Origin: Candidatus Acetothermia bacterium | Lineage (GTDB): Bacteria; Bipolaricaulota; Bipolaricaulia; Bipolaricaulales; Bipolaricaulaceae | Length of the DNA: 29,392 bases | Reading direction: 5' to 3' | Assembly: GCA_011057175.1 (NCBI GenBank) | Contig: DSBZ01000253.1 | Span: 1-29,392 of the forward strand | Made by a program: the position numbers and the translations under genes | Notes under the pieces: model-generated | The model's database searches: none | The model's input: the letters and a program-made list of their open reading frames with translations, nothing else | Told to the model about the DNA's origin: nothing | Shown: piece by piece, positions 1 through 29,392 of the stretch | Position numbering within the stretch: the first letter of the stretch is position 1 | How the letters are laid out: each line of letters begins with the position of its first letter

Positions 1-2
1 CC

Positions 3-1058
3 ATCCCCACCTACAACGTGACGGGCGACTTCCCGTGGGATGACCCGGACCTCGCCCCGCTGTGGGAGATGACGGCGAAGTATGGGATCCCCTACTTCGC
101 GAACTTCCTCTCCTCGGACATGATGCCGGAGGACGCGCGCAGCATGTGCTGTCGTCTCCGGCTCGACGTGCGGGAGCTCCGGCGCCGGGGCGGGGGCCTC
201 TTCGGGTCGAACCCCCTCACCGGCTCGATCGGGGTCGTGACGTTGAACCTGCCGCGGCTCGCGTTCCTCGCGAAGAGCGAGGAGGAGTTCTTCGAGCGGC
301 TCCATTCGCTGATGCAGATCGCGGGACGGTCGCTCATCATCAAGCGCAAGCTCCTGGAGCGCCTCACCGAGCAGGGGTTGTACCCGTACTCCAAGTTCTA
401 CCTGTCCTCGGTCCGGGAGGGGAGAGGCGAGTACTGGGCGAACCACTTCTCCACGATCGGCGTGGTCGGGATGAACGAAGCGGCCCTCAACCTCCTCGGG
501 GTCGACCTCGCCCACGAGGAGGGGATCCGGTTCGCCCGCCGTACGCTCGAGTTCATGCGCGAGACCCTTGTGCGGTTCCAAGAGGCGACTGGACACCTGT
601 GGAACCTCGAGGCGACCCCCGCCGAGGGGACGGCCTATCGGTTGGCGATGCTCGACCGGGAACGCTACCCTGGGATCCGGGTCGCCAACGGGCGCGCCGT
701 GCGGGAGAAGGGGGCTGCCCCCTACTACACGAACTCGTCCCAGCTCCCGGTGGACTTCACCGACGACCTGTTTTGCGCTTTGAAGCTACAGGAAGGGCTT
801 CAGACCCTGTACACGGGGGGGACCGTGTTCCACGCTTGGCTCGGGGAACGTCTCCCTTCGCCCGAGGCCGTGAAATCGCTCGTGGCGAAGATCTTCGCGA
901 ACTTCCGCATCCCCTACCTCACCCTCACCCCGACGTTCTCCGTGTGCCCCCAGCATGGGTACCTTCGCGGGGAGAACCGCTACTGCCCCAAGTGCGACGA
1001 GGAGATCATCGCGCGCCATCAGAAGGCCAAAGGAGGCGTTTGTGTCCACATACCGTGA
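3..1058 (+). CDS. nrdD: Anaerobic (class III) ribonucleoside-triphosphate reductase, large part, 5' end cut by window edge
   Basis: This is the C-terminal half of the catalytic subunit that reduces ribonucleotides to deoxyribonucleotides without oxygen. The frame is open to the window edge: codons before the GTG at 18 read I-P-T-Y-N, the family's PTYN motif, so that GTG is internal. In the visible 351 residues, the cysteine pair in SMCCRLRLD (C49, C50) lies where the thiyl-radical cysteine is expected, followed by NPLTGSIGVVTLNLPRL, YPYSKFYL, NHFSTIGVVGMNEA and YYTNSSQLPV. A zinc-site-like C315-x2-H318...C328-x2-C331 sits near the end; four cysteines are more usual. The protein stops 20 residues later, before the glycyl-radical segment, which lies in the next ORF in another frame. 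Family assignment is secure; the split is discussed separately. Confidence 0.95.
   Translation: MPTYNVTGDFPWDDPDLAPLWEMTAKYGIPYFANFLSSDMMPEDARSMCCRLRLDVRELRRRGGGLFGSNPLTGSIGVVTLNLPRLAFLAKSEEEFFERLHSLMQIAGRSLIIKRKLLERLTEQGLYPYSKFYLSSVREGRGEYWANHFSTIGVVGMNEAALNLLGVDLAHEEGIRFARRTLEFMRETLVRFQEATGHLWNLEATPAEGTAYRLAMLDRERYPGIRVANGRAVREKGAAPYYTNSSQLPVDFTDDLFCALKLQEGLQTLYTGGTVFHAWLGERLPSPEAVKSLVAKIFANFRIPYLTLTPTFSVCPQHGYLRGENRYCPKCDEEIIARHQKAKGGVCVHIP
1030..1036 (+). promoter_or_regulatory. Ribosome binding site inside the nrdD tail
   Basis: AAGGAGG lies 5 nt before the GTG at 1042, within the last codons of the preceding nrdD ORF. It fixes the start of the glycyl-radical ORF and argues that this ORF is translated separately rather than being only the tail of a frameshifted nrdD. 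Confidence 0.7.
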
Positions 1059-1248
1059 GGATGAACAAAGGAATCTGATTCTCGAGGATGGCACAGTCAT
1101 CCCGGAGGCGGAGCGGGTACAGGCCGAAGTCTACTCGCGCGTGGTGGGGTACCTGCGTCCGGTGGAGCAGTGGAACGCGGGGAAACAGGCGGAGTTCGCG
1201 GATCGAAAGGTGTTCCGCCCCACCCTCGACGACGGCCGCACCGAGTAG
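1042..1248 (+). CDS. nrdD: Glycyl-radical segment of anaerobic ribonucleotide reductase as a separate 68-aa ORF
   Basis: The 68-residue product contains VYSRVVGYLRPVEQWNAGKQ and then AEFADRKVF, the C-terminal signature of short-type NrdD proteins. Gly36 of RVVGY is the expected radical-bearing glycine, oxidised by NrdG. The ORF starts at GTG 1042 behind a strong ribosome binding site, overlaps the large NrdD ORF by 17 nt in a different frame, and ends 3 nt before nrdG, so coupled translation is likely. Its first 25 or so residues (YREDEQR, LEDGTVIPEAER) are charged and could dock onto the large part. Inference: a two-piece enzyme in which the radical glycine comes from a small partner. The alternative is one sequencing or real frameshift near 1042-1058 in a normal nrdD. 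The well-placed start favours a true split. Confidence 0.8.
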   Translation: MSTYREDEQRNLILEDGTVIPEAERVQAEVYSRVVGYLRPVEQWNAGKQAEFADRKVFRPTLDDGRTE

Positions 1249-1251
1249 CGG

Positions 1252-1986
1252 ATGGAGGTCGCCCATCTCCAGCCCCTCTCCCTCCTCGACTACCCGGGGA
1301 AGGTGGCGGCAGCGGTGTGGACGGTGGGGTGCAACCTGCGCTGTCCGTACTGCTACAACGCTGAGCTCGTTCTGCCCGAGCTTGGCGCGGACCTCCCGCG
1401 GCTTCCGGCTGAGGCAGTGGTCGCTCGGCTGCAGGAGAGGGTGGGGTTCCTCGACGGGGTCGTCGTCACCGGGGGCGAACCGACCCTCCACCGCGATCTC
1501 GTCGCCTTCGTGCGGAGACTCAAGGAGCTCGGGTTCCTCGTCAAGCTCGACACGAACGGGACCCATCCCGGCGTCCTGCGCTCGCTGTTGGAGGACAGGC
1601 TCGTGGACTACGTGGCCCTCGACCTGAAGGCTCCCTTCGCCCGGTACCGCGAGTTCACAGGCCTCCTCTCCCCGGACCCTGTAGCGTCGGAGCTTGTCTC
1701 CGACATCGTCCTGCGGGTTCGGGAGTCGATCGCTCTCATCCGCGACCACGCCCCGGACTACGAGTTTCGCACCACGGTCGCCCCCGGGCTCGCCCCCGAC
1801 GATATGATCGCGATTGCCAACGAGATCCGCGGCGCCCGACGCTACGCGCTGCAGCCGTTCTTCGCTCCCGAGGGAAAGCGATTGGTGGATGAGACGTGGC
1901 GGGGACAGTTCACCCTGTCAGCGGAGAAGCTGCGCAGCCTCCTCCCCGAGCTTCAGGAGTTCGTCCCCACCGAGCTTCGAGGCTAG
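1252..1986 (+). CDS. nrdG: Anaerobic ribonucleotide reductase activating protein (radical SAM)
   Basis: This 244-residue radical-SAM activase uses a [4Fe-4S] cluster and S-adenosylmethionine to place the glycyl radical on NrdD. The cluster motif C27-x3-C31-x2-C34 (CNLRCPYC) and the SAM-contacting GGEP (74-77) are present, and the N-terminal LSLLDYPGKVAA is typical of NrdG-type and related activases. It is longer than E. coli NrdG (about 154 aa) and resembles the longer activases paired with short-type NrdD. It starts 3 nt after the glycyl-radical ORF, which places all three ORFs in one unit. Its stop codon (1984-1986) overlaps that of convergent trpS. Substrate is inferred from position; pyruvate formate-lyase activases share the fold. 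Confidence 0.92.
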   Translation: MEVAHLQPLSLLDYPGKVAAAVWTVGCNLRCPYCYNAELVLPELGADLPRLPAEAVVARLQERVGFLDGVVVTGGEPTLHRDLVAFVRRLKELGFLVKLDTNGTHPGVLRSLLEDRLVDYVALDLKAPFARYREFTGLLSPDPVASELVSDIVLRVRESIALIRDHAPDYEFRTTVAPGLAPDDMIAIANEIRGARRYALQPFFAPEGKRLVDETWRGQFTLSAEKLRSLLPELQEFVPTELRG

Positions 1987-2963
1987 TCGAGTCCTACCCG
2001 GGCACGGACCTCGCGCATCGTCTCCCGGGCGATCGCCCGCGCCCGCTCCGCACCGTGGGCGAGGACCTCGTCCACGTCTCCGCGGGAAACGAGCTTCGCC
2101 CGACGCTCCCGGACCGGGCGCAGGGCGGCCATGAGGTGGGTGAAAAGCGCCTCCTTGAGGTCGCGGTAGAGGAGTTTCCCCGCCGCGTGGTCGCGCCGGA
2201 AGCCTTCTACGACCTCCCTCGGGGCCACGAGCTCGAGCAACGCGAACAGGTTCGCGACCCCAGGGCTCATCTCCTGGCTCGGGGTGAGGCCGACGTCGGT
2301 CACCGCCGACCGCACCTTCCTGCGGATGCTCTCCTCTGGCTCCATGAGGCCGATGTAGTGCTCCGGCCCAGCCGACTTGCTCATCTTCCGCTCCGGATCC
2401 GCGAGCGACATGATCCGCGCTCCCTCTCCGAGGATCGGCTCCGGCTCGGGGAACGTCTCCCCGAACCGGGAGTTGAACCGCCGCGCGATCCGCCGCGCCT
2501 CCTCCAAATGCTGGACCTGGTCCTCGCCCACCGGGACGTGGTCGGCCTTGTAGAGGAGGATGTCCGCCGCCTGGAGGACCGGATAGTAGAACAGGCCGCC
2601 GTTGACGAACTCCTGGCGGGCGGCCTTCTCCTTGAACTGGGTCATCCGCGTCAGGTCGCCGTAGGAGGCCACACAGCCCAGGATCCAACACAGCTCCGCG
2701 TGCTCCGGGACATCGGACTGCAGATAGAGGATCGAGCGTTCGGGGTTGATCCCGCACGCCAGGAGATCCAGCGCGAGCTCCCGCCGCGCGGTGCGGAGCT
2801 CGGCGGGCACTGTGTCCTCGTTCGTGAGGGCGTGGTAGTCGACGATGCTGTAGATCGTGTCGTTCCCGTGCTGGAGCTCAACCCAGCGCTGAATCGCCCC
2901 GAAGTAGTTCCCGATGTGGAGCTCCCCCGTTGGCTGGATCCCGGAGAAGATGCGCATGGCCAT
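1983..2963 (-). CDS. trpS: Tryptophanyl-tRNA synthetase
   Basis: TrpS charges tRNA-Trp with tryptophan using ATP in the cytoplasm. The 326-residue protein is close to the usual bacterial length (about 330). Class I signatures are visible: HIGN (16-19) as the HIGH motif after FSGIQPTGELHIGNYFGA, GEDQ (146-149) and KMSKS (193-197). The ATG at 2963 is chosen because it comes directly after a good promoter; a second ATG lies two codons later. No ribosome binding site precedes either, which suggests a leaderless mRNA. It runs toward nrdG and the two stop codons share the CTAG at 1983-1986. Its promoter diverges from the one for glmU across about 500 bp. Confidence 0.96.
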   Translation of the reverse strand: MAMRIFSGIQPTGELHIGNYFGAIQRWVELQHGNDTIYSIVDYHALTNEDTVPAELRTARRELALDLLACGINPERSILYLQSDVPEHAELCWILGCVASYGDLTRMTQFKEKAARQEFVNGGLFYYPVLQAADILLYKADHVPVGEDQVQHLEEARRIARRFNSRFGETFPEPEPILGEGARIMSLADPERKMSKSAGPEHYIGLMEPEESIRRKVRSAVTDVGLTPSQEMSPGVANLFALLELVAPREVVEGFRRDHAAGKLLYRDLKEALFTHLMAALRPVRERRAKLVSRGDVDEVLAHGAERARAIARETMREVRARVGLD

Positions 2964-2972
2964 CGGACGGGA

Positions 2973-3000
2973 AGTATAGGGGGGAAGGCCGCTAGCGCAA
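2973..3000 (-). promoter_or_regulatory. Sigma-70-type promoter of trpS
   Basis: On the minus strand, TTGCGC (3000-2995), a 16-nt spacer and TATACT (2978-2973) form a good housekeeping promoter. Only 9 nt separate the -10 box from the trpS ATG, so transcription would begin 2-3 nt before the start codon. Confidence 0.65.
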
Positions 3001-3143
3001 CCACAGGCCGTCGTCGGCGCCTGCGGGGAGGGGCGGCGCGTGGACTGGGAACCCCCGCTGCAGTACGGAAGGGGGTCTGCTCCCCTCGGCTGGCGAGGGA
3101 CGTCGGGCGCGGGTTCCGGGACGGGACCGACACGGAGGTCCCC

Positions 3144-3379
3144 ATGCCAGGCAAGTGGTGGACGGCCTGTCCTACGCGGGCCGCCTAGGACAGGTCCCCC
3201 CGATCCCGAACGTGGGCCGGGGCATGGCGGCGTGGTACCGGGGGGCGACCGCAGCGGGGGTGAACGACGCTGGGCTGTGGGCCAGCGGCCCCGACGCCCC
3301 GGGCGGGTCGTCCCCCGGGAGACCTAATTCCGACGAGAACGGTGACTGGATCGCGCAGCTCCGTCGAGAAGCGGAGTAG
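3144..3379 (+). pseudogene. Unrecognised small coding-like stretch with a frame break
   Basis: An ATG at 3144 follows GGAGG (3134-3138) at 5-nt spacing but reaches a stop after 14 codons (3188). In the -1 frame, entered at the AAG ending at 3155, 74 codons stay open to the TAG at 3377-3379, giving a joined product of 78 residues (MPGKVVDGLSYAGRL... ending QLRREAE). In that second frame 63 of 74 third positions are G or C against 46 of 74 second positions, a coding-like pattern. Upstream, about 30 codons before 3155 in the ATG frame also show GC-rich third positions, so the remnant may start near 3060. I recognise no family. It could be a decayed gene, a one-base sequence error or a chance effect of high GC. 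Confidence 0.3.
3166..3194. repeat. Inverted repeat with 8-bp perfect stem
   Basis: CCTGTCCT (3166-3173) pairs with AGGACAGG (3187-3194) across a 13-nt GC-rich loop. It falls at the frame break of the small remnant. No T-run follows, so a classic terminator is not supported. A transcription-factor site or simple RNA hairpin is possible. Confidence 0.4.
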
Positions 3380-3397
3380 GGTCGCCGGACGTCGGCC

Positions 3398-3420
3398 GGG
3401 GATCGTCCCCTGGTCAGGGG
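3398..3420. repeat. Overlapping short GC-rich inverted repeats upstream of the glmU promoter
   Basis: GGGG-atcgt-CCCC (3398-3410) overlaps CCCCTG-gt-CAGGGG (3407-3420), so one arm is shared and the two hairpins exclude each other. They lie 28 nt before the glmU -35 box and 18 nt after the remnant's stop. They may be a weak terminator or a regulator site; function unproven. Confidence 0.3.
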
Positions 3421-3448
3421 GAGTTCGCTCTCCACCCCGTTCCGTTCT

Positions 3449-3477
3449 TTGCAGGAGAAGCGCGGGGAGGGTATAGT
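3449..3477 (+). promoter_or_regulatory. Sigma-70-type promoter of glmU operon
   Basis: TTGCAG (3449-3454), exactly 17 nt, then TATAGT (3472-3477). The glmU ATG is 11 nt after the -10 box and no ribosome binding site lies between, so the transcript would start about 5 nt before the ATG (near-leaderless). Confidence 0.7.
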
Positions 3478-3488
3478 CGAAGCGATCG

Positions 3489-4877
3489 ATGGACGACTCG
3501 CTCGATATCGTGATCCTGGCGGCGGGGAAGGGGACGCGGATGTGCTCCCGCCGCCCCAAGGTCCTCCACCCGCTGTGCGGCCTTCCCCTCCTTGAACACG
3601 TGCTCCGTACCTCCTTCTCCCTTTCGCCGCGGCGGGTCGTGGTCGTGGTGGGCCACGGTAGGGACGTGGTGCGGGCCACGTTCGCGGAACGAGGGGTCGC
3701 GTTCGTGGACCAAGGGGAGCCCCGCGGCACGGGCCACGCCGTTCTCGCGGCGCGGGGGGCGGTGAGCTCGGGCACGTTCCTCGTCCTCCCCGGCGACGTC
3801 CCCCTTGTCCCTCCCGACGCCCTGCGCGCCCTCATCCAGTTCCACCAGGAGCGCGACGCCATGGTCTCCTTCCTCACGATGGAGCCGGCTGACCCTCGCC
3901 CCTACGGCCGCGTCGTGCGGGGGGAGGATGGGAAGCCGCTCCGGATCGTGGAGGCGGGCGATTCCTCCCCCGAAGAACTGTCGATCCGCGAACTCAACTC
4001 CGGGATCTGGTGCCTGAACAATTCCCCTGAGGTGTGGGAGGCGCTCGCCGGGCTCACCACCGCCAACGCGAAGGGCGAGTTCTACCTCACCGACCTCGTG
4101 GCGCACTTCTCCGCGGACGGGAAGGCTGCCGCCCTCCTCTGGCCCTGCGCGGACGACCTCGGGGGGGTGAACGACCGCGCTGACCTCGCCCGGTTCGAGC
4201 AGCTCCTCCGACAACGGATCCTCGCCGCGTGGATGTGCGGCGGGGTCACGGTGGTGGATCCGGCCGCGGTCTATCCGTCCCTCGATGCCACGGTGGGCGA
4301 GGACACGGTCCTCCACCCCGGTACCCACCTCCTCGGGCGGACCGCGGTCGGCGCCGGGTGCATGATCGGTCCCGGAGCCTATCTCATCGATGCGCGGATC
4401 GGCGACGGGGCACGGGTATGGTACTCGGCCATCGAGGGGGCAGAGGTGGGGCCGGAGGCGAGCGTGGGCCCCTACGCCCACCTCCGGCCGGGGTCGCGCA
4501 TCGGAAGGGGAGCGAGGGTCGGGAACTTCGTCGAGATCAAGGCATCCACCCTCGGAGAGGGGGTGAAGGCCGGTCACCTCGCCTACATCGGCGATGCCGA
4601 CGTCGGGGCCGGGGCGAACATCGGGGCCGGCGCCATCACCTGCAACTTCCAGCCGGGAAAGAAGGAGAAGTTCCGCACCGAGATTGGCGAGGGCGCGTTC
4701 GTCGGCAGCAACGCGTCCTTGATCGCGCCCATCCGGATCGGGGAAGGGGCCGTGGTGGGGGCGGGATCGGTGATCACGCACGACGTTTCCCCGTACGCGC
4801 TGGCCCTGGAGCGGGCCCCCGAGGTCGTGAAGCCGGACTGGGCGCAACGAACGGGGGAAGGGGAGGAGCATGCCTAG
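3489..4877 (+). CDS. glmU: Bifunctional UDP-N-acetylglucosamine pyrophosphorylase / glucosamine-1-phosphate N-acetyltransferase
   Basis: GlmU acetylates glucosamine-1-phosphate and couples it to UTP, giving UDP-GlcNAc for peptidoglycan and lipopolysaccharide. At 462 residues it matches the family (E. coli 456). The N-terminal nucleotidyltransferase has LAAGKGTRM (10-18), Lys24, GTGHA (80-84), PGDVP (101-105, Asp103) and GVNDR (226-230). From about residue 255 come left-handed beta-helix hexapeptide repeats, with the catalytic histidine at 363 in KAGHLAYIGDADVG and the ITCNFQPGKKEKF loop. It heads the long operon. The start is the first ATG after the promoter. The last 8 nt overlap prs. Confidence 0.97.
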   Translation: MDDSLDIVILAAGKGTRMCSRRPKVLHPLCGLPLLEHVLRTSFSLSPRRVVVVVGHGRDVVRATFAERGVAFVDQGEPRGTGHAVLAARGAVSSGTFLVLPGDVPLVPPDALRALIQFHQERDAMVSFLTMEPADPRPYGRVVRGEDGKPLRIVEAGDSSPEELSIRELNSGIWCLNNSPEVWEALAGLTTANAKGEFYLTDLVAHFSADGKAAALLWPCADDLGGVNDRADLARFEQLLRQRILAAWMCGGVTVVDPAAVYPSLDATVGEDTVLHPGTHLLGRTAVGAGCMIGPGAYLIDARIGDGARVWYSAIEGAEVGPEASVGPYAHLRPGSRIGRGARVGNFVEIKASTLGEGVKAGHLAYIGDADVGAGANIGAGAITCNFQPGKKEKFRTEIGEGAFVGSNASLIAPIRIGEGAVVGAGSVITHDVSPYALALERAPEVVKPDWAQRTGEGEEHA

Positions 4878-5904
4878 AGGAGAGGGGTTCGACGAGCTGC
4901 GGATCCTTTCGGGAAGCGCGAACCTGCCGTTGGCCCAACGCATCGGGGAGATCCTCGGGGTCGAGCTGTGCGAGGCCGATGCGCGATGCGGGAACGGGAC
5001 CTCCTACGCTCCTGGTCGGTTCCCGGACGGAGAGGTGCGCGTGCAGGTCCAACAGACGGTGCGCGGGAAGCACGTATTCGTCATCCAACCGACTTCCCCG
5101 CCGGTGAACGATCATCTGATGGAGCTCCTCATCCTCGTGGATGCCCTGCGGCGGGCCGCGTGCCGGGAGATCTGTGCTGTGATCCCCTACCTCGGCTACG
5201 CCCGCCAGGACCGGAAGATGATGGGGCGGGTCCCCATTTCGGCCCGCCTGGTGGCGGACCTCCTCGAGGCGGCAGGGGTGGACCGGGTGCTGACGATGGA
5301 CCTCCACGCTGGGCAGATCCAGGGCTTCTTCAAGGTGCCCCTCGATCACCTGCGGTCGGACCGAATGCTCGCCAAGTACATCTACGACCAGCATCCGGAG
5401 TGGCTGGAGAACCTCACCGTGGCCTCTCCGGACATCGGGGGGGTGTGGCGGGCACGGCGGATGGCCAAACGCCTGGGCGAGCTCGTCCACGGCAGCGGGG
5501 AGCTCCCGCTGGCCCTCGTCGTGATGCAGCGCGACGAGGCGAGAAAAGAGGTGGTGGTCAAAGACGTGATCGGAACGGTGTCGGGCCGCGACGTGCTCCT
5601 CGTGGACGACATCCTGGCGAGCGGCCGGACCCTCATCACCGCGGCGGAAGAGGTGGTGAGAGAGGGGGCGACCCGGGTCTTCGCCGCCTGTACCCACGGT
5701 GTGTTCACACCGGGCGCGCTGGAGACCCTCGATACTCCGTGGTTGCAGAGGGTGTTGGTGACCGATACCATTGCCCACCGCGACGAGGTCCGGGCGGCCC
5801 CCCAGATCGAGATCGTCTCGGTGGCCGAGTTCTTCGCGGACGCGATTCGCCGAATCTACCGCCACGAGTCGATGACCGACCTCTTGGCGTACTTGTCGCT
5901 GTAG
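4870..5904 (+). CDS. prs: Ribose-phosphate pyrophosphokinase family protein (PRPP synthetase) with altered catalytic loop
   Basis: The family makes PRPP from ribose-5-phosphate and ATP for purine, pyrimidine, histidine and tryptophan synthesis. Visible motifs are FPDGE (51-55), YLGYARQDRK (107-116), DLHAGQIQGFF (144-154), SPDIGG (186-191) and the PRPP loop VDDILASGRTL (245-255). It has 344 residues, about 30 more than usual, partly from an insertion around 37-50. By eye alignment, the flexible catalytic loop normally holding K-R-R (E. coli K194/R196) reads Q220-R221-D222, and the PRPP loop has A-S-G-R-T instead of the usual D-T-(A/G)-G-T. The glmU-prs-ctc order supports a role as the main PRPP synthetase. 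Activity is inferred; a divergent or regulatory homologue is the alternative. Confidence 0.88.
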   Translation: MPRGEGFDELRILSGSANLPLAQRIGEILGVELCEADARCGNGTSYAPGRFPDGEVRVQVQQTVRGKHVFVIQPTSPPVNDHLMELLILVDALRRAACREICAVIPYLGYARQDRKMMGRVPISARLVADLLEAAGVDRVLTMDLHAGQIQGFFKVPLDHLRSDRMLAKYIYDQHPEWLENLTVASPDIGGVWRARRMAKRLGELVHGSGELPLALVVMQRDEARKEVVVKDVIGTVSGRDVLLVDDILASGRTLITAAEEVVREGATRVFAACTHGVFTPGALETLDTPWLQRVLVTDTIAHRDEVRAAPQIEIVSVAEFFADAIRRIYRHESMTDLLAYLSL

Positions 5905-5920
5905 GCGGAGGAGGATCGGG

Positions 5921-6568
5921 ATGATGGTGAATGCAGCGCGGCGGCCCACCGGGAAGGCGGGGGCTCTCCGCCGTCAAGGGCAAGTTCCAGCCGTCCTGTA
6001 CGGTGCTCACGTGGCTTCGTTGCACGTCGCGATCCCGGAGAAGGAGCTCCTTCACCTTTTCGACCACGTGACGCGCTCGACCCCGGTCGAAGTGAAGGTA
6101 GATGGGAGGGAGACCTATCACGTCTTCCTCAAGGAGATCCAGGTCCATCCGATCACAGAGCGGTTCCTGCACGTCGACCTCTACGTCGCGGATCCGGAAC
6201 GCCCCCTCCAGATGGATGTCCCCGTGCGCTTCGTGGGCACGGCCCGCGGGATCAAGGACGGGGGGATCCTGGAGGCGGTGCACGGCTACATCCCAGTTCA
6301 AGCCCTCCCCGCCAAGATGCCGCCGCGGATCGAGATCGATGTGTCGGACCTTGGGATCGGCGACTCGATCCTCGTCAAGGACCTCCCGTGGGGCGAGGGC
6401 GTCGAGCCCCTGCTTCCTCCCGAGGACGCGGTGGTAACCGTGGCCGCACGGCGGGCGCTCGAGGTCGAGGCGCCGGTGGCCGCGGAAGCCGCCGAGGCCG
6501 TTCCGATTGAGGAGGGCGCCGAGGGCAAAGAGGCCGAACCAGCGGGAGGCGAACCACCCGCGGCTTGA
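5921..6568 (+). CDS. rplY: 50S ribosomal protein L25 / general stress protein Ctc
   Basis: This 215-residue long-form L25 (Ctc/TL5 type) binds 5S rRNA in the large subunit. The N-terminal domain (about 1-95) has the KAGALRRQGQVPAVLYG start and the HVDLY stretch; a second beta domain follows (about 97-185, PVRFVGTARGIKDGGIL), then an acidic, alanine-rich, probably disordered tail (about 188-215). The ATG at 5921 is preceded by GGAGGAGG (5907-5914) at 6 nt; the ATG at 5924 is a weaker alternative. It lies 16 nt after prs and overlaps pth by 4 nt. Ctc between prs and pth is a classic Firmicutes order. Confidence 0.95.
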   Translation: MMVNAARRPTGKAGALRRQGQVPAVLYGAHVASLHVAIPEKELLHLFDHVTRSTPVEVKVDGRETYHVFLKEIQVHPITERFLHVDLYVADPERPLQMDVPVRFVGTARGIKDGGILEAVHGYIPVQALPAKMPPRIEIDVSDLGIGDSILVKDLPWGEGVEPLLPPEDAVVTVAARRALEVEAPVAAEAAEAVPIEEGAEGKEAEPAGGEPPAA

Positions 6569-7137
6569 GGGCCGTCGTCGGGCTAGGGAACGTCGGACCG
6601 GAGTACGCGGCCAGCCGGCATAATGTTGGGTTCTGGGTAATCGAACGGCTCATCCCGCGCGCGAGGTGGTGCCGGGAGGTCCATCCTTGGGGTGAGGTCC
6701 ACCGATCGGCCAACGGCCTTCTCCTTCGCCCCTCCACCTACATGAACCGGTCCGGGGAGGCCGTGCGCGAGCTCCTCAGCACCTTCTCCCTCTCTCCCCA
6801 CGAGATCCTCGTCGCCTACGACGAGGCCGACCTCCCAGTGGGAAGCCTCCGGCTACGGGCTCGGGGAGGGGCAGGGACGCACCGCGGGATGGCGTCCGTC
6901 CTCGCCGCGCTGGGGACGGACGACGTGCCCCGCCTCCGGGTCGGGATCGGTCGGCCGGCGCAAGGCGGGGACTGGACTGCGCACGTCCTCTCGCCGCCTC
7001 CCCGCGCCGAGGCGGAGGCCCTGTCGGGTGCGGTGGATCTCGCCGGGGAACTGGCGTGGGCGTTCCTCAGCCACGGGCTGGCCGCGGCCCTGGACCGCTT
7101 CTCCCGTGAGGGGGGAAGGGCGGACCGTATAATCTAA
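6565..7137 (+). CDS. pth: Peptidyl-tRNA hydrolase
   Basis: Pth frees tRNAs from peptidyl-tRNAs dropped by ribosomes. At 190 residues it is of normal length. GLGNVGPEY contains Asn9, His19 of SRHNVGFW matches the catalytic histidine (E. coli His20), PSTYMNRSG carries Asn61 (E. coli Asn68), and YDEADLP carries Asp86 (E. coli Asp93). The start is TTG at 6565, since the conserved GLGN lies only six residues in and no ATG or GTG fits nearby. TTG shares TTGA with the stop codon of the L25 gene, so translation is probably coupled; no strong ribosome binding site is seen. The 3' end hosts the likely clpC promoter. Confidence 0.95.
   Translation: MRAVVGLGNVGPEYAASRHNVGFWVIERLIPRARWCREVHPWGEVHRSANGLLLRPSTYMNRSGEAVRELLSTFSLSPHEILVAYDEADLPVGSLRLRARGGAGTHRGMASVLAALGTDDVPRLRVGIGRPAQGGDWTAHVLSPPPRAEAEALSGAVDLAGELAWAFLSHGLAAALDRFSREGGRADRII
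7105..7133 (+). promoter_or_regulatory. Probable internal promoter for clpC within the pth tail
   Basis: A consensus TATAAT (7128-7133) overlaps the last pth codons, with a poor -35 match (CGTGAG, 7105-7110) at 17 nt. The start codon of clpC at 7151 follows GGAGG (7140-7144) at 6 nt. This could allow stress-specific transcription of clpC-radA-disA apart from the upstream genes. No CtsR operator that I could recognise is present. Confidence 0.45.
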
Positions 7138-7150
7138 TCGGAGGTCGTCG

Positions 7151-9562: not shown

Positions 9563-10888
9563 GTGCCCTACCGCTGCCGGGAGTGCGGCTACCGGTCTCC
9601 AAAGTGGCTGGGCCGCTGTCCCCAGTGCGGGCAGTGGGAGTCGTTTGAGGAGGTGGGCGGAGCGGTTGACGAGGGGACGGCCGCGGGGGGAGGCCTTCCC
9701 CAGATCCTCGCCGCTGTGCCCAGCGCTGCAGGGGAGCGGCTGACCACGGGGATGCCGGAGGTGGACCGCGTGCTCGGAGGGCTCATCCCCGGGGCGGTGG
9801 TCCTCTTCGGCGGCGAGCCTGGGGTGGGGAAGTCCACCCTCCTCCTCCAGCTCGCCGCCCGCCTCGTCGCCTATGGGAAGGTCCTCTACGTCTCGGGCGA
9901 GGAGGCCCCGGCTCAGGTCAAGCTGCGGGCGGAGCGCCTCGGGATCGAGGGGGATTCCCTCTATTTCCAGTCAGAGCAGGAGCTCCTGGCGATCGTGCGC
10001 GCGGTGAAGGGGCTGGAGCCGGCCGTGCTCGTCGTGGACTCCCTCCAGACCGTGCTCGCCCGTCCCGATGGGGGCGAGATCGGGAGCCTCGTTCAGGTGA
10101 GGGAGGCCGCCGCGCAGCTGGCGCGCCTGGCCAAGGGGCTGGGCATGGTCACGTTTCTCGTCTCTCACATCACGAAGGGTGGCGAGTTCGCGGGTCCGAA
10201 GACGGTCGAGCACCTCGTGGATGTGGCGGTGCAGCTCGAGGGGGTGCGGGAGGGGGAGCTCCGCCTCCTGCGCTGCGCGAAGAACCGGTTCGCGTCCACG
10301 GCCGAGGTCGCCGTGCTCCAGATGGGCCCGGCCGGGCTCTCCGAGGTGGCCAACCCCTCGCTCTTCTTCGTGTCCCAGGACCGGGCCCCCAAGCCGGGGG
10401 CGGCGATCGTCCCCGTGCTTGAGGGGTCGCGGACCCTCCTCGTGGAGATCCAGGCCCTCGTCGCTCCGGGAGGGGGGGTCGGCCCCCCCCAACGCCGTAC
10501 GGCTGGCCTTGATCTGAACAGAACTTTAGTCCTTCTGGCCGTGATCGAGAAGCACCTCGGCGTGCATGTCCGGGCGATGGACGTGTACCTCGCTGTGGCC
10601 GGCGGGCTCGAAGTGCGGGAGCCAGCGGCGGACCTCGGGGTCTGTGCCGCGATCTTGGGGAGCCTGCGGAACCGCGCCATCCCCGCTGACACCGTCGTCG
10701 TGGGCGAGGTCGGCTTGGCTGGGGATCTCCGTCCCGTGCGGAAGGGACCGGAACGCCTCCAGGAAGTAGCCAAGCTCGGGTTCGCGCGGGCGGTGGTGCC
10801 GAGCGGGCCCGTCCCCAAGCGCGTACGGTTGGAGATGGTTCCCTGTTCGACGTTGCGGGAAGCGATGGAGGCGCTGGGGCTGATCTGA
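9563..10888 (+). CDS. radA: DNA repair protein RadA
   Basis: RadA is a RecA-like hexameric helicase that extends branches during recombination. The 441 residues show an N-terminal zinc finger C5-x2-C8 ... C19-x2-C22, Walker A GGEPGVGKST (83-92), a Walker B-like LVVDS (156-160), the RadA signature K240-N-R-F-A-S-T (usually KNRFGST, here Gly to Ala), and a C-terminal Lon-protease-like domain (about 305-441, DVYLAVAGGLEVREPAADLG). The GTG start at 9563 immediately follows the clpC stop; the zinc finger begins at residue 5, so no later start is acceptable. disA follows after 1 nt. Confidence 0.96.
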   Translation: MPYRCRECGYRSPKWLGRCPQCGQWESFEEVGGAVDEGTAAGGGLPQILAAVPSAAGERLTTGMPEVDRVLGGLIPGAVVLFGGEPGVGKSTLLLQLAARLVAYGKVLYVSGEEAPAQVKLRAERLGIEGDSLYFQSEQELLAIVRAVKGLEPAVLVVDSLQTVLARPDGGEIGSLVQVREAAAQLARLAKGLGMVTFLVSHITKGGEFAGPKTVEHLVDVAVQLEGVREGELRLLRCAKNRFASTAEVAVLQMGPAGLSEVANPSLFFVSQDRAPKPGAAIVPVLEGSRTLLVEIQALVAPGGGVGPPQRRTAGLDLNRTLVLLAVIEKHLGVHVRAMDVYLAVAGGLEVREPAADLGVCAAILGSLRNRAIPADTVVVGEVGLAGDLRPVRKGPERLQEVAKLGFARAVVPSGPVPKRVRLEMVPCSTLREAMEALGLI

Positions 10889-10889
10889 G

Positions 10890-11954: not shown

Positions 11955-11996
11955 CACCACGGTTGCCGGTTCGCGGTGCCGTAGGGAGGAGCGAGG

Positions 11997-12806: not shown

Positions 12807-12848
12807 AGCCGCACCGAGCGCGGACCTCTGCCCTGGAGCTCCTCCCAT

Positions 12849-12857
12849 TGGTATAAT
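12849..12857 (+). promoter_or_regulatory. Extended -10 promoter of the nucleotidase gene
   Basis: TGGTATAAT is a perfect extended -10 element (TGnTATAAT) in the punA-nucleotidase gap. No good -35 is seen 17 nt upstream, as is common for extended -10 promoters. Transcription would start near 12864 and give a leader of about 100 nt. Confidence 0.6.
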
Positions 12858-12875
12858 CGGACCGCGGAGTTGAGG

Positions 12876-16544: not shown

Positions 16545-16586
16545 ATGGGAGGAGCTCCAGGGCAGAGGTCCGCGCTCGGTGCGGCT

Positions 16587-17396: not shown

Positions 17397-17438
17397 CCTC
17401 GCTCCTCCCTACGGCACCGCGAACCGGCAACCGTGGTG

Positions 17439-18503: not shown

Positions 18504-18504
18504 C

Positions 18505-22242: not shown

Positions 22243-22255
22243 CGACGACCTCCGA

Positions 22256-22828
22256 TTAGATTATACGGTCCGCCCTTCCCCCCTCACGGGAGAAGCGGTC
22301 CAGGGCCGCGGCCAGCCCGTGGCTGAGGAACGCCCACGCCAGTTCCCCGGCGAGATCCACCGCACCCGACAGGGCCTCCGCCTCGGCGCGGGGAGGCGGC
22401 GAGAGGACGTGCGCAGTCCAGTCCCCGCCTTGCGCCGGCCGACCGATCCCGACCCGGAGGCGGGGCACGTCGTCCGTCCCCAGCGCGGCGAGGACGGACG
22501 CCATCCCGCGGTGCGTCCCTGCCCCTCCCCGAGCCCGTAGCCGGAGGCTTCCCACTGGGAGGTCGGCCTCGTCGTAGGCGACGAGGATCTCGTGGGGAGA
22601 GAGGGAGAAGGTGCTGAGGAGCTCGCGCACGGCCTCCCCGGACCGGTTCATGTAGGTGGAGGGGCGAAGGAGAAGGCCGTTGGCCGATCGGTGGACCTCA
22701 CCCCAAGGATGGACCTCCCGGCACCACCTCGCGCGCGGGATGAGCCGTTCGATTACCCAGAACCCAACATTATGCCGGCTGGCCGCGTACTCCGGTCCGA
22801 CGTTCCCTAGCCCGACGACGGCCCTCAA
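22256..22828 (-). CDS. pth: Peptidyl-tRNA hydrolase (mirror copy)
   Basis: Identical to 6565-7137, with the same TTG start overlapping the L25 stop codon. Confidence 0.92.
   Translation of the reverse strand: MRAVVGLGNVGPEYAASRHNVGFWVIERLIPRARWCREVHPWGEVHRSANGLLLRPSTYMNRSGEAVRELLSTFSLSPHEILVAYDEADLPVGSLRLRARGGAGTHRGMASVLAALGTDDVPRLRVGIGRPAQGGDWTAHVLSPPPRAEAEALSGAVDLAGELAWAFLSHGLAAALDRFSREGGRADRII
22260..22288 (-). promoter_or_regulatory. Internal clpC promoter (mirror copy)
   Basis: TATAAT at 22265-22260 on the minus strand with the weak -35 at 22288-22283; reverse copy of 7105-7133. Confidence 0.4.
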
Positions 22829-23472
22829 GCCGCGGGTGGTTCGCCTCCCGCTGGTTCGGCCTCTTTGCCCTCGGCGCCCTCCTCAATCGGAACGGCCTCG
22901 GCGGCTTCCGCGGCCACCGGCGCCTCGACCTCGAGCGCCCGCCGTGCGGCCACGGTTACCACCGCGTCCTCGGGAGGAAGCAGGGGCTCGACGCCCTCGC
23001 CCCACGGGAGGTCCTTGACGAGGATCGAGTCGCCGATCCCAAGGTCCGACACATCGATCTCGATCCGCGGCGGCATCTTGGCGGGGAGGGCTTGAACTGG
23101 GATGTAGCCGTGCACCGCCTCCAGGATCCCCCCGTCCTTGATCCCGCGGGCCGTGCCCACGAAGCGCACGGGGACATCCATCTGGAGGGGGCGTTCCGGA
23201 TCCGCGACGTAGAGGTCGACGTGCAGGAACCGCTCTGTGATCGGATGGACCTGGATCTCCTTGAGGAAGACGTGATAGGTCTCCCTCCCATCTACCTTCA
23301 CTTCGACCGGGGTCGAGCGCGTCACGTGGTCGAAAAGGTGAAGGAGCTCCTTCTCCGGGATCGCGACGTGCAACGAAGCCACGTGAGCACCGTACAGGAC
23401 GGCTGGAACTTGCCCTTGACGGCGGAGAGCCCCCGCCTTCCCGGTGGGCCGCCGCGCTGCATTCACCATCAT
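22825..23472 (-). CDS. rplY: Ribosomal protein L25 / Ctc (mirror copy)
   Basis: Identical 215-residue protein to 5921-6568, including the acidic alanine-rich tail. Confidence 0.92.
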   Translation of the reverse strand: MMVNAARRPTGKAGALRRQGQVPAVLYGAHVASLHVAIPEKELLHLFDHVTRSTPVEVKVDGRETYHVFLKEIQVHPITERFLHVDLYVADPERPLQMDVPVRFVGTARGIKDGGILEAVHGYIPVQALPAKMPPRIEIDVSDLGIGDSILVKDLPWGEGVEPLLPPEDAVVTVAARRALEVEAPVAAEAAEAVPIEEGAEGKEAEPAGGEPPAA

Positions 23473-23488
23473 CCCGATCCTCCTCCGC

Positions 23489-24523
23489 CTACAGCGACAA
23501 GTACGCCAAGAGGTCGGTCATCGACTCGTGGCGGTAGATTCGGCGAATCGCGTCCGCGAAGAACTCGGCCACCGAGACGATCTCGATCTGGGGGGCCGCC
23601 CGGACCTCGTCGCGGTGGGCAATGGTATCGGTCACCAACACCCTCTGCAACCACGGAGTATCGAGGGTCTCCAGCGCGCCCGGTGTGAACACACCGTGGG
23701 TACAGGCGGCGAAGACCCGGGTCGCCCCCTCTCTCACCACCTCTTCCGCCGCGGTGATGAGGGTCCGGCCGCTCGCCAGGATGTCGTCCACGAGGAGCAC
23801 GTCGCGGCCCGACACCGTTCCGATCACGTCTTTGACCACCACCTCTTTTCTCGCCTCGTCGCGCTGCATCACGACGAGGGCCAGCGGGAGCTCCCCGCTG
23901 CCGTGGACGAGCTCGCCCAGGCGTTTGGCCATCCGCCGTGCCCGCCACACCCCCCCGATGTCCGGAGAGGCCACGGTGAGGTTCTCCAGCCACTCCGGAT
24001 GCTGGTCGTAGATGTACTTGGCGAGCATTCGGTCCGACCGCAGGTGATCGAGGGGCACCTTGAAGAAGCCCTGGATCTGCCCAGCGTGGAGGTCCATCGT
24101 CAGCACCCGGTCCACCCCTGCCGCCTCGAGGAGGTCCGCCACCAGGCGGGCCGAAATGGGGACCCGCCCCATCATCTTCCGGTCCTGGCGGGCGTAGCCG
24201 AGGTAGGGGATCACAGCACAGATCTCCCGGCACGCGGCCCGCCGCAGGGCATCCACGAGGATGAGGAGCTCCATCAGATGATCGTTCACCGGCGGGGAAG
24301 TCGGTTGGATGACGAATACGTGCTTCCCGCGCACCGTCTGTTGGACCTGCACGCGCACCTCTCCGTCCGGGAACCGACCAGGAGCGTAGGAGGTCCCGTT
24401 CCCGCATCGCGCATCGGCCTCGCACAGCTCGACCCCGAGGATCTCCCCGATGCGTTGGGCCAACGGCAGGTTCGCGCTTCCCGAAAGGATCCGCAGCTCG
24501 TCGAACCCCTCTCCTCTAGGCAT
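23489..24523 (-). CDS. prs: PRPP synthetase family protein (mirror copy)
   Basis: Identical to 4870-5904, with the same Gln-Arg-Asp catalytic loop and VDDILASGRTL. Confidence 0.85.
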   Translation of the reverse strand: MPRGEGFDELRILSGSANLPLAQRIGEILGVELCEADARCGNGTSYAPGRFPDGEVRVQVQQTVRGKHVFVIQPTSPPVNDHLMELLILVDALRRAACREICAVIPYLGYARQDRKMMGRVPISARLVADLLEAAGVDRVLTMDLHAGQIQGFFKVPLDHLRSDRMLAKYIYDQHPEWLENLTVASPDIGGVWRARRMAKRLGELVHGSGELPLALVVMQRDEARKEVVVKDVIGTVSGRDVLLVDDILASGRTLITAAEEVVREGATRVFAACTHGVFTPGALETLDTPWLQRVLVTDTIAHRDEVRAAPQIEIVSVAEFFADAIRRIYRHESMTDLLAYLSL

Positions 24524-25904
24524 GCTCCTCCCCTTCCCCCGTTCGTTGCGCCCAGTCCGGCTTCACGACCTCGGGGGCCCGCTCCAGGGCCAGCGCGTAC
24601 GGGGAAACGTCGTGCGTGATCACCGATCCCGCCCCCACCACGGCCCCTTCCCCGATCCGGATGGGCGCGATCAAGGACGCGTTGCTGCCGACGAACGCGC
24701 CCTCGCCAATCTCGGTGCGGAACTTCTCCTTCTTTCCCGGCTGGAAGTTGCAGGTGATGGCGCCGGCCCCGATGTTCGCCCCGGCCCCGACGTCGGCATC
24801 GCCGATGTAGGCGAGGTGACCGGCCTTCACCCCCTCTCCGAGGGTGGATGCCTTGATCTCGACGAAGTTCCCGACCCTCGCTCCCCTTCCGATGCGCGAC
24901 CCCGGCCGGAGGTGGGCGTAGGGGCCCACGCTCGCCTCCGGCCCCACCTCTGCCCCCTCGATGGCCGAGTACCATACCCGTGCCCCGTCGCCGATCCGCG
25001 CATCGATGAGATAGGCTCCGGGACCGATCATGCACCCGGCGCCGACCGCGGTCCGCCCGAGGAGGTGGGTACCGGGGTGGAGGACCGTGTCCTCGCCCAC
25101 CGTGGCATCGAGGGACGGATAGACCGCGGCCGGATCCACCACCGTGACCCCGCCGCACATCCACGCGGCGAGGATCCGTTGTCGGAGGAGCTGCTCGAAC
25201 CGGGCGAGGTCAGCGCGGTCGTTCACCCCCCCGAGGTCGTCCGCGCAGGGCCAGAGGAGGGCGGCAGCCTTCCCGTCCGCGGAGAAGTGCGCCACGAGGT
25301 CGGTGAGGTAGAACTCGCCCTTCGCGTTGGCGGTGGTGAGCCCGGCGAGCGCCTCCCACACCTCAGGGGAATTGTTCAGGCACCAGATCCCGGAGTTGAG
25401 TTCGCGGATCGACAGTTCTTCGGGGGAGGAATCGCCCGCCTCCACGATCCGGAGCGGCTTCCCATCCTCCCCCCGCACGACGCGGCCGTAGGGGCGAGGG
25501 TCAGCCGGCTCCATCGTGAGGAAGGAGACCATGGCGTCGCGCTCCTGGTGGAACTGGATGAGGGCGCGCAGGGCGTCGGGAGGGACAAGGGGGACGTCGC
25601 CGGGGAGGACGAGGAACGTGCCCGAGCTCACCGCCCCCCGCGCCGCGAGAACGGCGTGGCCCGTGCCGCGGGGCTCCCCTTGGTCCACGAACGCGACCCC
25701 TCGTTCCGCGAACGTGGCCCGCACCACGTCCCTACCGTGGCCCACCACGACCACGACCCGCCGCGGCGAAAGGGAGAAGGAGGTACGGAGCACGTGTTCA
25801 AGGAGGGGAAGGCCGCACAGCGGGTGGAGGACCTTGGGGCGGCGGGAGCACATCCGCGTCCCCTTCCCCGCCGCCAGGATCACGATATCGAGCGAGTCGT
25901 CCAT
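24516..25904 (-). CDS. glmU: Bifunctional GlmU (mirror copy)
   Basis: Identical to 3489-4877; nucleotidyltransferase plus left-handed beta-helix acetyltransferase. Confidence 0.94.
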   Translation of the reverse strand: MDDSLDIVILAAGKGTRMCSRRPKVLHPLCGLPLLEHVLRTSFSLSPRRVVVVVGHGRDVVRATFAERGVAFVDQGEPRGTGHAVLAARGAVSSGTFLVLPGDVPLVPPDALRALIQFHQERDAMVSFLTMEPADPRPYGRVVRGEDGKPLRIVEAGDSSPEELSIRELNSGIWCLNNSPEVWEALAGLTTANAKGEFYLTDLVAHFSADGKAAALLWPCADDLGGVNDRADLARFEQLLRQRILAAWMCGGVTVVDPAAVYPSLDATVGEDTVLHPGTHLLGRTAVGAGCMIGPGAYLIDARIGDGARVWYSAIEGAEVGPEASVGPYAHLRPGSRIGRGARVGNFVEIKASTLGEGVKAGHLAYIGDADVGAGANIGAGAITCNFQPGKKEKFRTEIGEGAFVGSNASLIAPIRIGEGAVVGAGSVITHDVSPYALALERAPEVVKPDWAQRTGEGEEHA

Positions 25905-25915
25905 CGATCGCTTCG

Positions 25916-25944
25916 ACTATACCCTCCCCGCGCTTCTCCTGCAA
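25916..25944 (-). promoter_or_regulatory. glmU promoter (mirror copy)
   Basis: TTGCAG-17 nt-TATAGT on the minus strand, 11 nt before the ATG at 25904; reverse copy of 3449-3477. Confidence 0.65.
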
Positions 25945-26013
25945 AGAACGGAACGGGGTGGAGAGCGAACTCCCCCTGACCAGGGGACGATCCCCGGCCG
26001 ACGTCCGGCGACC

Positions 26014-26249
26014 CTACTCCGCTTCTCGACGGAGCTGCGCGATCCAGTCACCGTTCTCGTCGGAATTAGGTCTCCCGGGGGACGACCCGCCCGGGGCGTC
26101 GGGGCCGCTGGCCCACAGCCCAGCGTCGTTCACCCCCGCTGCGGTCGCCCCCCGGTACCACGCCGCCATGCCCCGGCCCACGTTCGGGATCGGGGGGACC
26201 TGTCCTAGGCGGCCCGCGTAGGACAGGCCGTCCACCACTTGCCTGGCAT
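26014..26249 (-). pseudogene. Frame-broken coding-like stretch (mirror copy)
   Basis: Reverse copy of 3144-3379, with the frame break at the same base. Since the arms are not independent, its recurrence says nothing about whether the break is real. Confidence 0.28.
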
Positions 26250-26392
26250 GGGGACCTCCGTGTCGGTCCCGTCCCGGAACCCGCGCCCGACGTCCCTCGC
26301 CAGCCGAGGGGAGCAGACCCCCTTCCGTACTGCAGCGGGGGTTCCCAGTCCACGCGCCGCCCCTCCCCGCAGGCGCCGACGACGGCCTGTGG

Positions 26393-26420
26393 TTGCGCTA
26401 GCGGCCTTCCCCCCTATACT
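26393..26420 (+). promoter_or_regulatory. trpS promoter (mirror copy)
   Basis: TTGCGC (26393-26398), 16 nt, TATACT (26415-26420), then 9 nt to the ATG at 26430. Confidence 0.62.
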
Positions 26421-26429
26421 TCCCGTCCG

Positions 26430-27410
26430 ATGGCCATGCGCATCTTCTCCGGGATCCAGCCAACGGGGGAGCTCCACATCGGGAACTACTTCGGGGCGAT
26501 TCAGCGCTGGGTTGAGCTCCAGCACGGGAACGACACGATCTACAGCATCGTCGACTACCACGCCCTCACGAACGAGGACACAGTGCCCGCCGAGCTCCGC
26601 ACCGCGCGGCGGGAGCTCGCGCTGGATCTCCTGGCGTGCGGGATCAACCCCGAACGCTCGATCCTCTATCTGCAGTCCGATGTCCCGGAGCACGCGGAGC
26701 TGTGTTGGATCCTGGGCTGTGTGGCCTCCTACGGCGACCTGACGCGGATGACCCAGTTCAAGGAGAAGGCCGCCCGCCAGGAGTTCGTCAACGGCGGCCT
26801 GTTCTACTATCCGGTCCTCCAGGCGGCGGACATCCTCCTCTACAAGGCCGACCACGTCCCGGTGGGCGAGGACCAGGTCCAGCATTTGGAGGAGGCGCGG
26901 CGGATCGCGCGGCGGTTCAACTCCCGGTTCGGGGAGACGTTCCCCGAGCCGGAGCCGATCCTCGGAGAGGGAGCGCGGATCATGTCGCTCGCGGATCCGG
27001 AGCGGAAGATGAGCAAGTCGGCTGGGCCGGAGCACTACATCGGCCTCATGGAGCCAGAGGAGAGCATCCGCAGGAAGGTGCGGTCGGCGGTGACCGACGT
27101 CGGCCTCACCCCGAGCCAGGAGATGAGCCCTGGGGTCGCGAACCTGTTCGCGTTGCTCGAGCTCGTGGCCCCGAGGGAGGTCGTAGAAGGCTTCCGGCGC
27201 GACCACGCGGCGGGGAAACTCCTCTACCGCGACCTCAAGGAGGCGCTTTTCACCCACCTCATGGCCGCCCTGCGCCCGGTCCGGGAGCGTCGGGCGAAGC
27301 TCGTTTCCCGCGGAGACGTGGACGAGGTCCTCGCCCACGGTGCGGAGCGGGCGCGGGCGATCGCCCGGGAGACGATGCGCGAGGTCCGTGCCCGGGTAGG
27401 ACTCGACTAG
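26430..27410 (+). CDS. trpS: Tryptophanyl-tRNA synthetase (mirror copy)
   Basis: Identical to 1983-2963, with HIGN and KMSKS. Convergent with the nrdG copy, sharing CTAG at 27407-27410. Confidence 0.94.
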   Translation: MAMRIFSGIQPTGELHIGNYFGAIQRWVELQHGNDTIYSIVDYHALTNEDTVPAELRTARRELALDLLACGINPERSILYLQSDVPEHAELCWILGCVASYGDLTRMTQFKEKAARQEFVNGGLFYYPVLQAADILLYKADHVPVGEDQVQHLEEARRIARRFNSRFGETFPEPEPILGEGARIMSLADPERKMSKSAGPEHYIGLMEPEESIRRKVRSAVTDVGLTPSQEMSPGVANLFALLELVAPREVVEGFRRDHAAGKLLYRDLKEALFTHLMAALRPVRERRAKLVSRGDVDEVLAHGAERARAIARETMREVRARVGLD

Positions 27411-28141
27411 CCTCGAAGCTCGGTGGGGACGAACTCCTGAAGCTCGGGGAGGAGGCTGCGCAGCTTCTCCGCTGACAGGGTGAACTGTCCCCGCCACGTC
27501 TCATCCACCAATCGCTTTCCCTCGGGAGCGAAGAACGGCTGCAGCGCGTAGCGTCGGGCGCCGCGGATCTCGTTGGCAATCGCGATCATATCGTCGGGGG
27601 CGAGCCCGGGGGCGACCGTGGTGCGAAACTCGTAGTCCGGGGCGTGGTCGCGGATGAGAGCGATCGACTCCCGAACCCGCAGGACGATGTCGGAGACAAG
27701 CTCCGACGCTACAGGGTCCGGGGAGAGGAGGCCTGTGAACTCGCGGTACCGGGCGAAGGGAGCCTTCAGGTCGAGGGCCACGTAGTCCACGAGCCTGTCC
27801 TCCAACAGCGAGCGCAGGACGCCGGGATGGGTCCCGTTCGTGTCGAGCTTGACGAGGAACCCGAGCTCCTTGAGTCTCCGCACGAAGGCGACGAGATCGC
27901 GGTGGAGGGTCGGTTCGCCCCCGGTGACGACGACCCCGTCGAGGAACCCCACCCTCTCCTGCAGCCGAGCGACCACTGCCTCAGCCGGAAGCCGCGGGAG
28001 GTCCGCGCCAAGCTCGGGCAGAACGAGCTCAGCGTTGTAGCAGTACGGACAGCGCAGGTTGCACCCCACCGTCCACACCGCTGCCGCCACCTTCCCCGGG
28101 TAGTCGAGGAGGGAGAGGGGCTGGAGATGGGCGACCTCCAT
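27407..28141 (-). CDS. nrdG: Anaerobic ribonucleotide reductase activase (mirror copy)
   Basis: Identical to 1252-1986, with the CNLRCPYC cluster motif. Confidence 0.9.
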   Translation of the reverse strand: MEVAHLQPLSLLDYPGKVAAAVWTVGCNLRCPYCYNAELVLPELGADLPRLPAEAVVARLQERVGFLDGVVVTGGEPTLHRDLVAFVRRLKELGFLVKLDTNGTHPGVLRSLLEDRLVDYVALDLKAPFARYREFTGLLSPDPVASELVSDIVLRVRESIALIRDHAPDYEFRTTVAPGLAPDDMIAIANEIRGARRYALQPFFAPEGKRLVDETWRGQFTLSAEKLRSLLPELQEFVPTELRG

Positions 28142-28144
28142 CCG

Positions 28145-28351
28145 CTACTCGGTGCGGCCGTCGTCGAGGGTGGGGCGGAACACCTTTCGATCCGCGAACT
28201 CCGCCTGTTTCCCCGCGTTCCACTGCTCCACCGGACGCAGGTACCCCACCACGCGCGAGTAGACTTCGGCCTGTACCCGCTCCGCCTCCGGGATGACTGT
28301 GCCATCCTCGAGAATCAGATTCCTTTGTTCATCCTCACGGTATGTGGACAC
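28145..28351 (-). CDS. nrdD: Glycyl-radical segment of NrdD as separate ORF (mirror copy)
   Basis: Identical to 1042-1248; GTG start behind AAGGAGG (28363-28357) inside the end of the large nrdD ORF. Carries RVVGYLRP. Confidence 0.77.
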   Translation of the reverse strand: MSTYREDEQRNLILEDGTVIPEAERVQAEVYSRVVGYLRPVEQWNAGKQAEFADRKVFRPTLDDGRTE

Positions 28352-29390
28352 AAACGCCTCCTTTGGCCTTCTGATGGCGCGCGATGATCTCCTCGTCGCA
28401 CTTGGGGCAGTAGCGGTTCTCCCCGCGAAGGTACCCATGCTGGGGGCACACGGAGAACGTCGGGGTGAGGGTGAGGTAGGGGATGCGGAAGTTCGCGAAG
28501 ATCTTCGCCACGAGCGATTTCACGGCCTCGGGCGAAGGGAGACGTTCCCCGAGCCAAGCGTGGAACACGGTCCCCCCCGTGTACAGGGTCTGAAGCCCTT
28601 CCTGTAGCTTCAAAGCGCAAAACAGGTCGTCGGTGAAGTCCACCGGGAGCTGGGACGAGTTCGTGTAGTAGGGGGCAGCCCCCTTCTCCCGCACGGCGCG
28701 CCCGTTGGCGACCCGGATCCCAGGGTAGCGTTCCCGGTCGAGCATCGCCAACCGATAGGCCGTCCCCTCGGCGGGGGTCGCCTCGAGGTTCCACAGGTGT
28801 CCAGTCGCCTCTTGGAACCGCACAAGGGTCTCGCGCATGAACTCGAGCGTACGGCGGGCGAACCGGATCCCCTCCTCGTGGGCGAGGTCGACCCCGAGGA
28901 GGTTGAGGGCCGCTTCGTTCATCCCGACCACGCCGATCGTGGAGAAGTGGTTCGCCCAGTACTCGCCTCTCCCCTCCCGGACCGAGGACAGGTAGAACTT
29001 GGAGTACGGGTACAACCCCTGCTCGGTGAGGCGCTCCAGGAGCTTGCGCTTGATGATGAGCGACCGTCCCGCGATCTGCATCAGCGAATGGAGCCGCTCG
29101 AAGAACTCCTCCTCGCTCTTCGCGAGGAACGCGAGCCGCGGCAGGTTCAACGTCACGACCCCGATCGAGCCGGTGAGGGGGTTCGACCCGAAGAGGCCCC
29201 CGCCCCGGCGCCGGAGCTCCCGCACGTCGAGCCGGAGACGACAGCACATGCTGCGCGCGTCCTCCGGCATCATGTCCGAGGAGAGGAAGTTCGCGAAGTA
29301 GGGGATCCCATACTTCGCCGTCATCTCCCACAGCGGGGCGAGGTCCGGGTCATCCCACGGGAAGTCGCCCGTCACGTTGTAGGTGGGGAT
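28335..29390 (-). CDS. nrdD: Anaerobic ribonucleotide reductase, large part, cut by window edge (mirror copy)
   Basis: Identical to 3-1058 and open at the right window edge at exactly the matching base. Confidence 0.93.
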   Translation of the reverse strand: MPTYNVTGDFPWDDPDLAPLWEMTAKYGIPYFANFLSSDMMPEDARSMCCRLRLDVRELRRRGGGLFGSNPLTGSIGVVTLNLPRLAFLAKSEEEFFERLHSLMQIAGRSLIIKRKLLERLTEQGLYPYSKFYLSSVREGRGEYWANHFSTIGVVGMNEAALNLLGVDLAHEEGIRFARRTLEFMRETLVRFQEATGHLWNLEATPAEGTAYRLAMLDRERYPGIRVANGRAVREKGAAPYYTNSSQLPVDFTDDLFCALKLQEGLQTLYTGGTVFHAWLGERLPSPEAVKSLVAKIFANFRIPYLTLTPTFSVCPQHGYLRGENRYCPKCDEEIIARHQKAKGGVCVHIP

Positions 29391-29392
29391 GG

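Follow-up and report, generated by a model that had tools for sequence, protein, structure and literature searches.

Linear replicons with hairpin telomeres of the resolvase type replicate through an intermediate that forms an inverted repeat centred on a short palindrome. Palindromes that span a whole contig have been attributed to other causes: the relevant passages of two reports describe 81 whole-contig palindromes in SPAdes assemblies as a likely assembly error (PMC9455707) and exactly mirrored contigs of single-cell genomes as artefacts that very likely arose in assembly (PMC12755884). In multiple displacement amplification (MDA), more than 85% of rearrangements were inverted and more than 70% of junctions were primed at 2-21 complementary bases, according to the pertinent part of PMC1855051. 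The palindrome passages of three further papers (PMC5253355, PMC6350398 and PMC9296519) were considered and have no bearing on the palindrome treated here.

The window, that is, the whole stretch of DNA analysed, is a complete contig (C1) of 29392 bases with no N. The draft genome to which it belongs comprises 1382944 bases in 271 contigs, with completeness rated at 93.99% and contamination at 3.55%. The initial annotation had called the entire window a perfect, spacerless palindrome, and comparing it with its own reverse complement bore this out with 0 mismatches (identity at 29392/29392 positions), position x pairing with 29393-x about an axis between 14696 and 14697. It had also placed both outer ends inside nrdD at the mirrored base; this holds as well, and the shared base is the end of C1 itself. 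Like the contigs in the passages on palindromic assemblies (PMC9455707, PMC12755884), C1 forms one palindrome with identical ends, in which the genes are doubled as exact reverse complements. Those passages do not give the turning point, whereas for C1 we could identify the axis, the inverted repeat in which it lies and a contig with homology to the expected continuation. An exact inverted copy of 14.7 kb cannot have arisen by chance, and the palindrome is almost certainly an assembly fold-back artefact, perhaps aided by inverted chimeric reads, and not a biological structure. The features of C1 are given below; gene names in the arm were derived from Pfam domains and are in part conjectural, and every arm feature at x-y has a counterpart on the opposite strand at (29393-y)-(29393-x).

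1..14696, + strand: arm, real chromosomal sequence, colinear with relatives except for length differences between some genes
3..1058, + strand: nrdD (class III ribonucleotide reductase), 3' part of the catalytic core (PF13597 positions 204-532), truncated at the contig end
1042..1248, + strand: glycyl-radical domain of NrdD as a separate ORF, GTG start with AAAGGAGG upstream; mirror at 28145-28351, - strand
1252..1986, + strand: radical SAM protein (PF04055, PF13353), probably an NrdG-type activase
1983..2963, - strand: class I W/Y tRNA synthetase (PF00579), probably trpS
3489..4877, + strand: glmU-like gene (NTP transferase and hexapeptide repeats)
4870..5904, + strand: ribose-phosphate pyrophosphokinase (prs)
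5921..6568, + strand: ribosomal protein L25/TL5
6565..7137, + strand: peptidyl-tRNA hydrolase (pth)
7151..9562, + strand: ClpC-type AAA ATPase
9563..10888, + strand: radA-like gene, named from its domains
10890..11954, + strand: disA-like gene (DAC and DisA-linker)
11997..12806, + strand: purine nucleoside phosphorylase-like gene (PF01048)
12936..14654, + strand: 5'-nucleotidase with an inserted helix-hairpin-helix domain, the final gene ahead of the axis
14687..14706, no strand: axis core, the 20-base self-complementary GGGCAGGGCGCGCCCTGCCC
14697..29392, - strand: almost certainly artefactual half, an exact reverse-complement copy of the arm

No tRNA genes were detected in the arm by ARAGORN. 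Homologues of the 5'-nucleotidase with 73-88% identity were found in 10 loci, eight of them named Bipolaricaulota or Bipolaricaulis, one Acetothermia and one Thermotoga sp. Among the contigs whose length was seen, C1 is the longest (C2 has 23403 bases and C10 has 14771), and this rank is due solely to the doubling, as the arm alone has 14696 bases; the contigs appear to be numbered by falling length. None of 35 other contigs of the genome is a whole-contig palindrome (the scan took in 37 stretches totalling 431848 bases, or 31% of the assembly; C4 and C5 were covered by their first 20000 bases, and five short contigs of 1506-2779 bases, which read N, fell outside it).

The axis lies in an intergenic inverted repeat 42 bases 3' of the 5'-nucleotidase ORF, with GGGCAGGGCG on its left and CGCCCTGCCC on its right. 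In all five relatives compared at this site, drawn from the 13 closest loci (L002, L009, L003, L014 and L007), the best inverted repeat nearby consists of 8- to 16-base arms around a 2- to 4-base loop, and past it the relatives run on into other sequence. The MDA chimeras reported in part of PMC1855051 are likewise joined in inverted orientation where short stretches are complementary; unlike those, the junction in C1 has no intervening deletion or spacer, and there is no sign that the sample was amplified. A role of the axis hairpin as a terminator was rejected (in L009 the fold has a z of -1.49, 14/200 shuffles fold equally well, and no T run lies downstream), and we call the element an inverted repeat only. 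A megablast search of the axis region against a phage collection gave no match.

The arm was also aligned with its relatives. In the two nearest, the alignment stops 1-2 bases short of the axis (at window position 14695 in L009/G004 and 14694 in L002/G006), with an identity over the last segment of 86.7% and 88.3%, respectively. Beyond this point the relatives carry a Nif3-like gene (PF01784), whose single match in the genome under study is on contig C16. The alignment of C16, taken in reverse, to G004 begins at position 22455; the equivalent of the axis is 22414, which leaves 40 bases between them, and the alignment continues in segments over ~13 kb to the far end of C16. The order of arm and then C16 was found in 7/7 relatives compared (L002/G006, L009/G004, L003, L006, L014, G005 and G009), a set made up of five of the 13 closest loci together with G005 and G009, the other eight loci lying outside this comparison. 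Both G005 and G009 are single-contig genomes. The first 145-150 bases of C16 are unaligned in L003, L014 and G005. The match to the far end of C16 sits, in L014, at another place in the locus and on the opposite strand. None of the contigs of the genome that were read contains the ~40 bases separating the axis from C16, so the join of arm and C16 is drawn from the relatives and not from an overlap; judged by gene order, C16 is probably the true neighbour of the arm in this organism. The initial annotation had proposed that the assembler folded back at a self-complementary node or that an inverted amplification gave a chimera, and its proposal is supported by an axis within an inverted repeat, by relatives that diverge there and by a continuation that sits on C16.

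The same comparisons weigh on the biological alternatives. A hairpin telomere of a linear replicon, replicated to an inverted dimer that a telomere resolvase then resolves, would account for perfect symmetry around a short palindrome, but it would not stop both outer ends at one base inside nrdD. The ResT/TelK resolvase domain PF16684 was found in 0/20 genomes searched, this one (rated 94% complete) included, with the control positive in 1/14 genomes. Moreover, the axis site is not at a replicon end in the relatives: it is internal to a contig in G004 and G006 and to the single contigs of G005 and G009. C1 differs in both respects from replicons with hairpin telomeres, and we regard this explanation as extremely improbable. 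That the cell itself carries a head-to-head duplication, or an inverted amplification, of ~14.7 kb is very improbable; the sequence by itself would be compatible with one in a minority subpopulation, but the outer ends are identical, divergence is zero, there is no spacer, and arm is followed by C16-type sequence in all seven relatives. In the regions around the axis site of four relatives (G004, G005, G006 and G009) no inverted repeat longer than 150 bases was present. A mixed population, in which part of the cells would carry a true spacerless inverted dimer formed when replication turned at the hairpin and the remainder would keep the normal order with C16, is likewise highly improbable.

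Under the assembly fold-back that we favour, the chromosome would run from the arm through the short intergenic inverted repeat into the sequence at the end of C16, while the assembly path would switch at the repeat to the opposite strand and retrace the same 14.7 kb to the same graph end. Because a walk that turns at the axis would reach the same end of the graph on both sides, exact symmetry and identical outer ends would both follow. The turn itself may have been caused by inverted chimeric reads, or by a self-complementary de Bruijn edge combined with poor coverage past the repeat. When k is odd no k-mer can be self-complementary, yet an edge of k+1 bases can be. A short palindrome alone is insufficient, since six further spacerless palindromes of 20-24 bases are unfolded in the 431848 bases of other contigs tested; coverage lost past the hairpin, or a number of inverted chimeric reads, would therefore be needed in addition.

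A second fold-back was found at the end of contig C12, in or beside an rsmH/mraW-type gene, where positions 185-247 recur, exact and reverse-complemented, as positions 1-63, with a spacer of 121 bases. Twelve genomes were searched for this region, eight of them of the same genus. Seven of these eight have a long forward match to C12, beginning no earlier than C12 position 67 in 7/7, and in the same seven C12 positions 2 to 63-77 match at the same place on the opposite strand, so that the fold-back arrangement is absent from all seven; the eighth, G008, has no match to the region. A few short matches lie elsewhere in the relatives. With the threshold set to 24 exact bases, the genome's own contigs besides C12 contain two 24-base palindromes, and 17 loci of relatives (303820 bases, with overlap between some loci) contain three spacerless 26-base palindromes, two of which are probably one site, and no spaced or long inverted repeats.

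These observations bear on how the turn came about. It is somewhat probable that inverted chimeric molecules from amplification or library preparation were responsible, with a 3' end snapping back at the repeat and copying its own strand, after which the assembler would retrace the arm. The C12 fold-back, with its spacer, would not be produced by a self-complementary k-mer and leans towards chimeric reads, and the six unfolded palindromes lean the same way. The form of the C12 junction is that of MDA chimeras, for which inversion and priming at short complementary stretches are the rule in the part of PMC1855051 concerned. The CGCG loop at the axis is self-complementary, so a snap-back at this hairpin would appear spacerless. 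Counting against chimeric molecules, there is no sign of library amplification, and fold-backs occur in 2/36 contigs examined (C1 and C12).

A pure graph error is a real possibility that falls short of probable: a self-complementary edge of 20-22 bases, at the lowest k, would have linked the arm with the reverse complement of itself where the true exit was without coverage. The axis is a spacerless palindrome that is partly kept in relatives, and C16 begins ~40 bases past it, as expected if coverage fell at the hairpin. The ends of contigs C25 and C150 overlap by exactly 119 bases, which suggests that the assembly was made by a k-mer assembler; 119 is a member of the default k list of MEGAHIT. 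That reading draws on one pair, and the ends of C29 and C3 have 25 bases in common with C34 and C21, respectively, but do not overlap them cleanly end to end (the comparison covered one true end fewer for C4 and C5). A pure graph error also has to contend with the six similar palindromes that stayed unfolded, and with C12, for which a different cause is needed.

With the palindrome read as an assembly fold-back, it has no biological meaning, and its value lies in assembly quality control. About a dozen arm genes are present twice in C1, several of which are usually single-copy, and the doubled genes may add to the reported contamination. Screening for self-complementary contigs is simple, and such contigs should be cut to one half before genes are counted.

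At the outer end of the contig, a search of this genome for the 5' part that nrdD lacks gave no match; it had no positive control, so that its empty answer is weak, and five short contigs (those of 1506-2779 bases mentioned above) read N. Positions 1-1710 of C34 correspond to what lies upstream of nrdD in G004, but on C34 they are joined to other sequence.

We also observed that NrdD is divided between two reading frames. The glycyl-radical ORF (1042-1248) overlaps the end of the catalytic-core ORF, and in 12/12 genomes of the genus AAGGAGG stands shortly upstream of its start, with the long core ORF ending 17-23 bases inside it. The start, assigned by a script from the motif, is GTG in 11 of these genomes and ATG in one. 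In other genera, NrdD was matched in 18 genomes, 17 of which have it in a single long frame (703-1040 codons); G014, with 95 codons, is the exception. From these reading frames, the genus possibly has a split class III ribonucleotide reductase; a programmed frameshift in place of a separate start for the glycyl-radical ORF is an alternative. Split chains are described for class II enzymes in part of PMC9669993, and no split class III enzyme appears in the titles and abstract openings retrieved from the literature.

Further differences from relatives were seen. The Nif3-like gene on C16 (about 12268-12817) is without several internal stretches that are present in G004 and G006, the first of which is flanked in G004 by a short direct repeat; these gaps may reflect gene decay or misassembly. 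The spacers at window positions 2984-3241 and 12783-12823 measure 0.26 kb and 0.04 kb here versus ~3.1 kb and 0.8 kb in G004, and either the genome is more compact or the assembly has collapsed there. In the 5'-nucleotidase (12936-14654, + strand), the helix-hairpin-helix domain (PF12836, residues 243-304) sits between the two domains of the enzyme, and a motif for this domain is present in 10 of 69 related loci, all 10 within the 13 closest.
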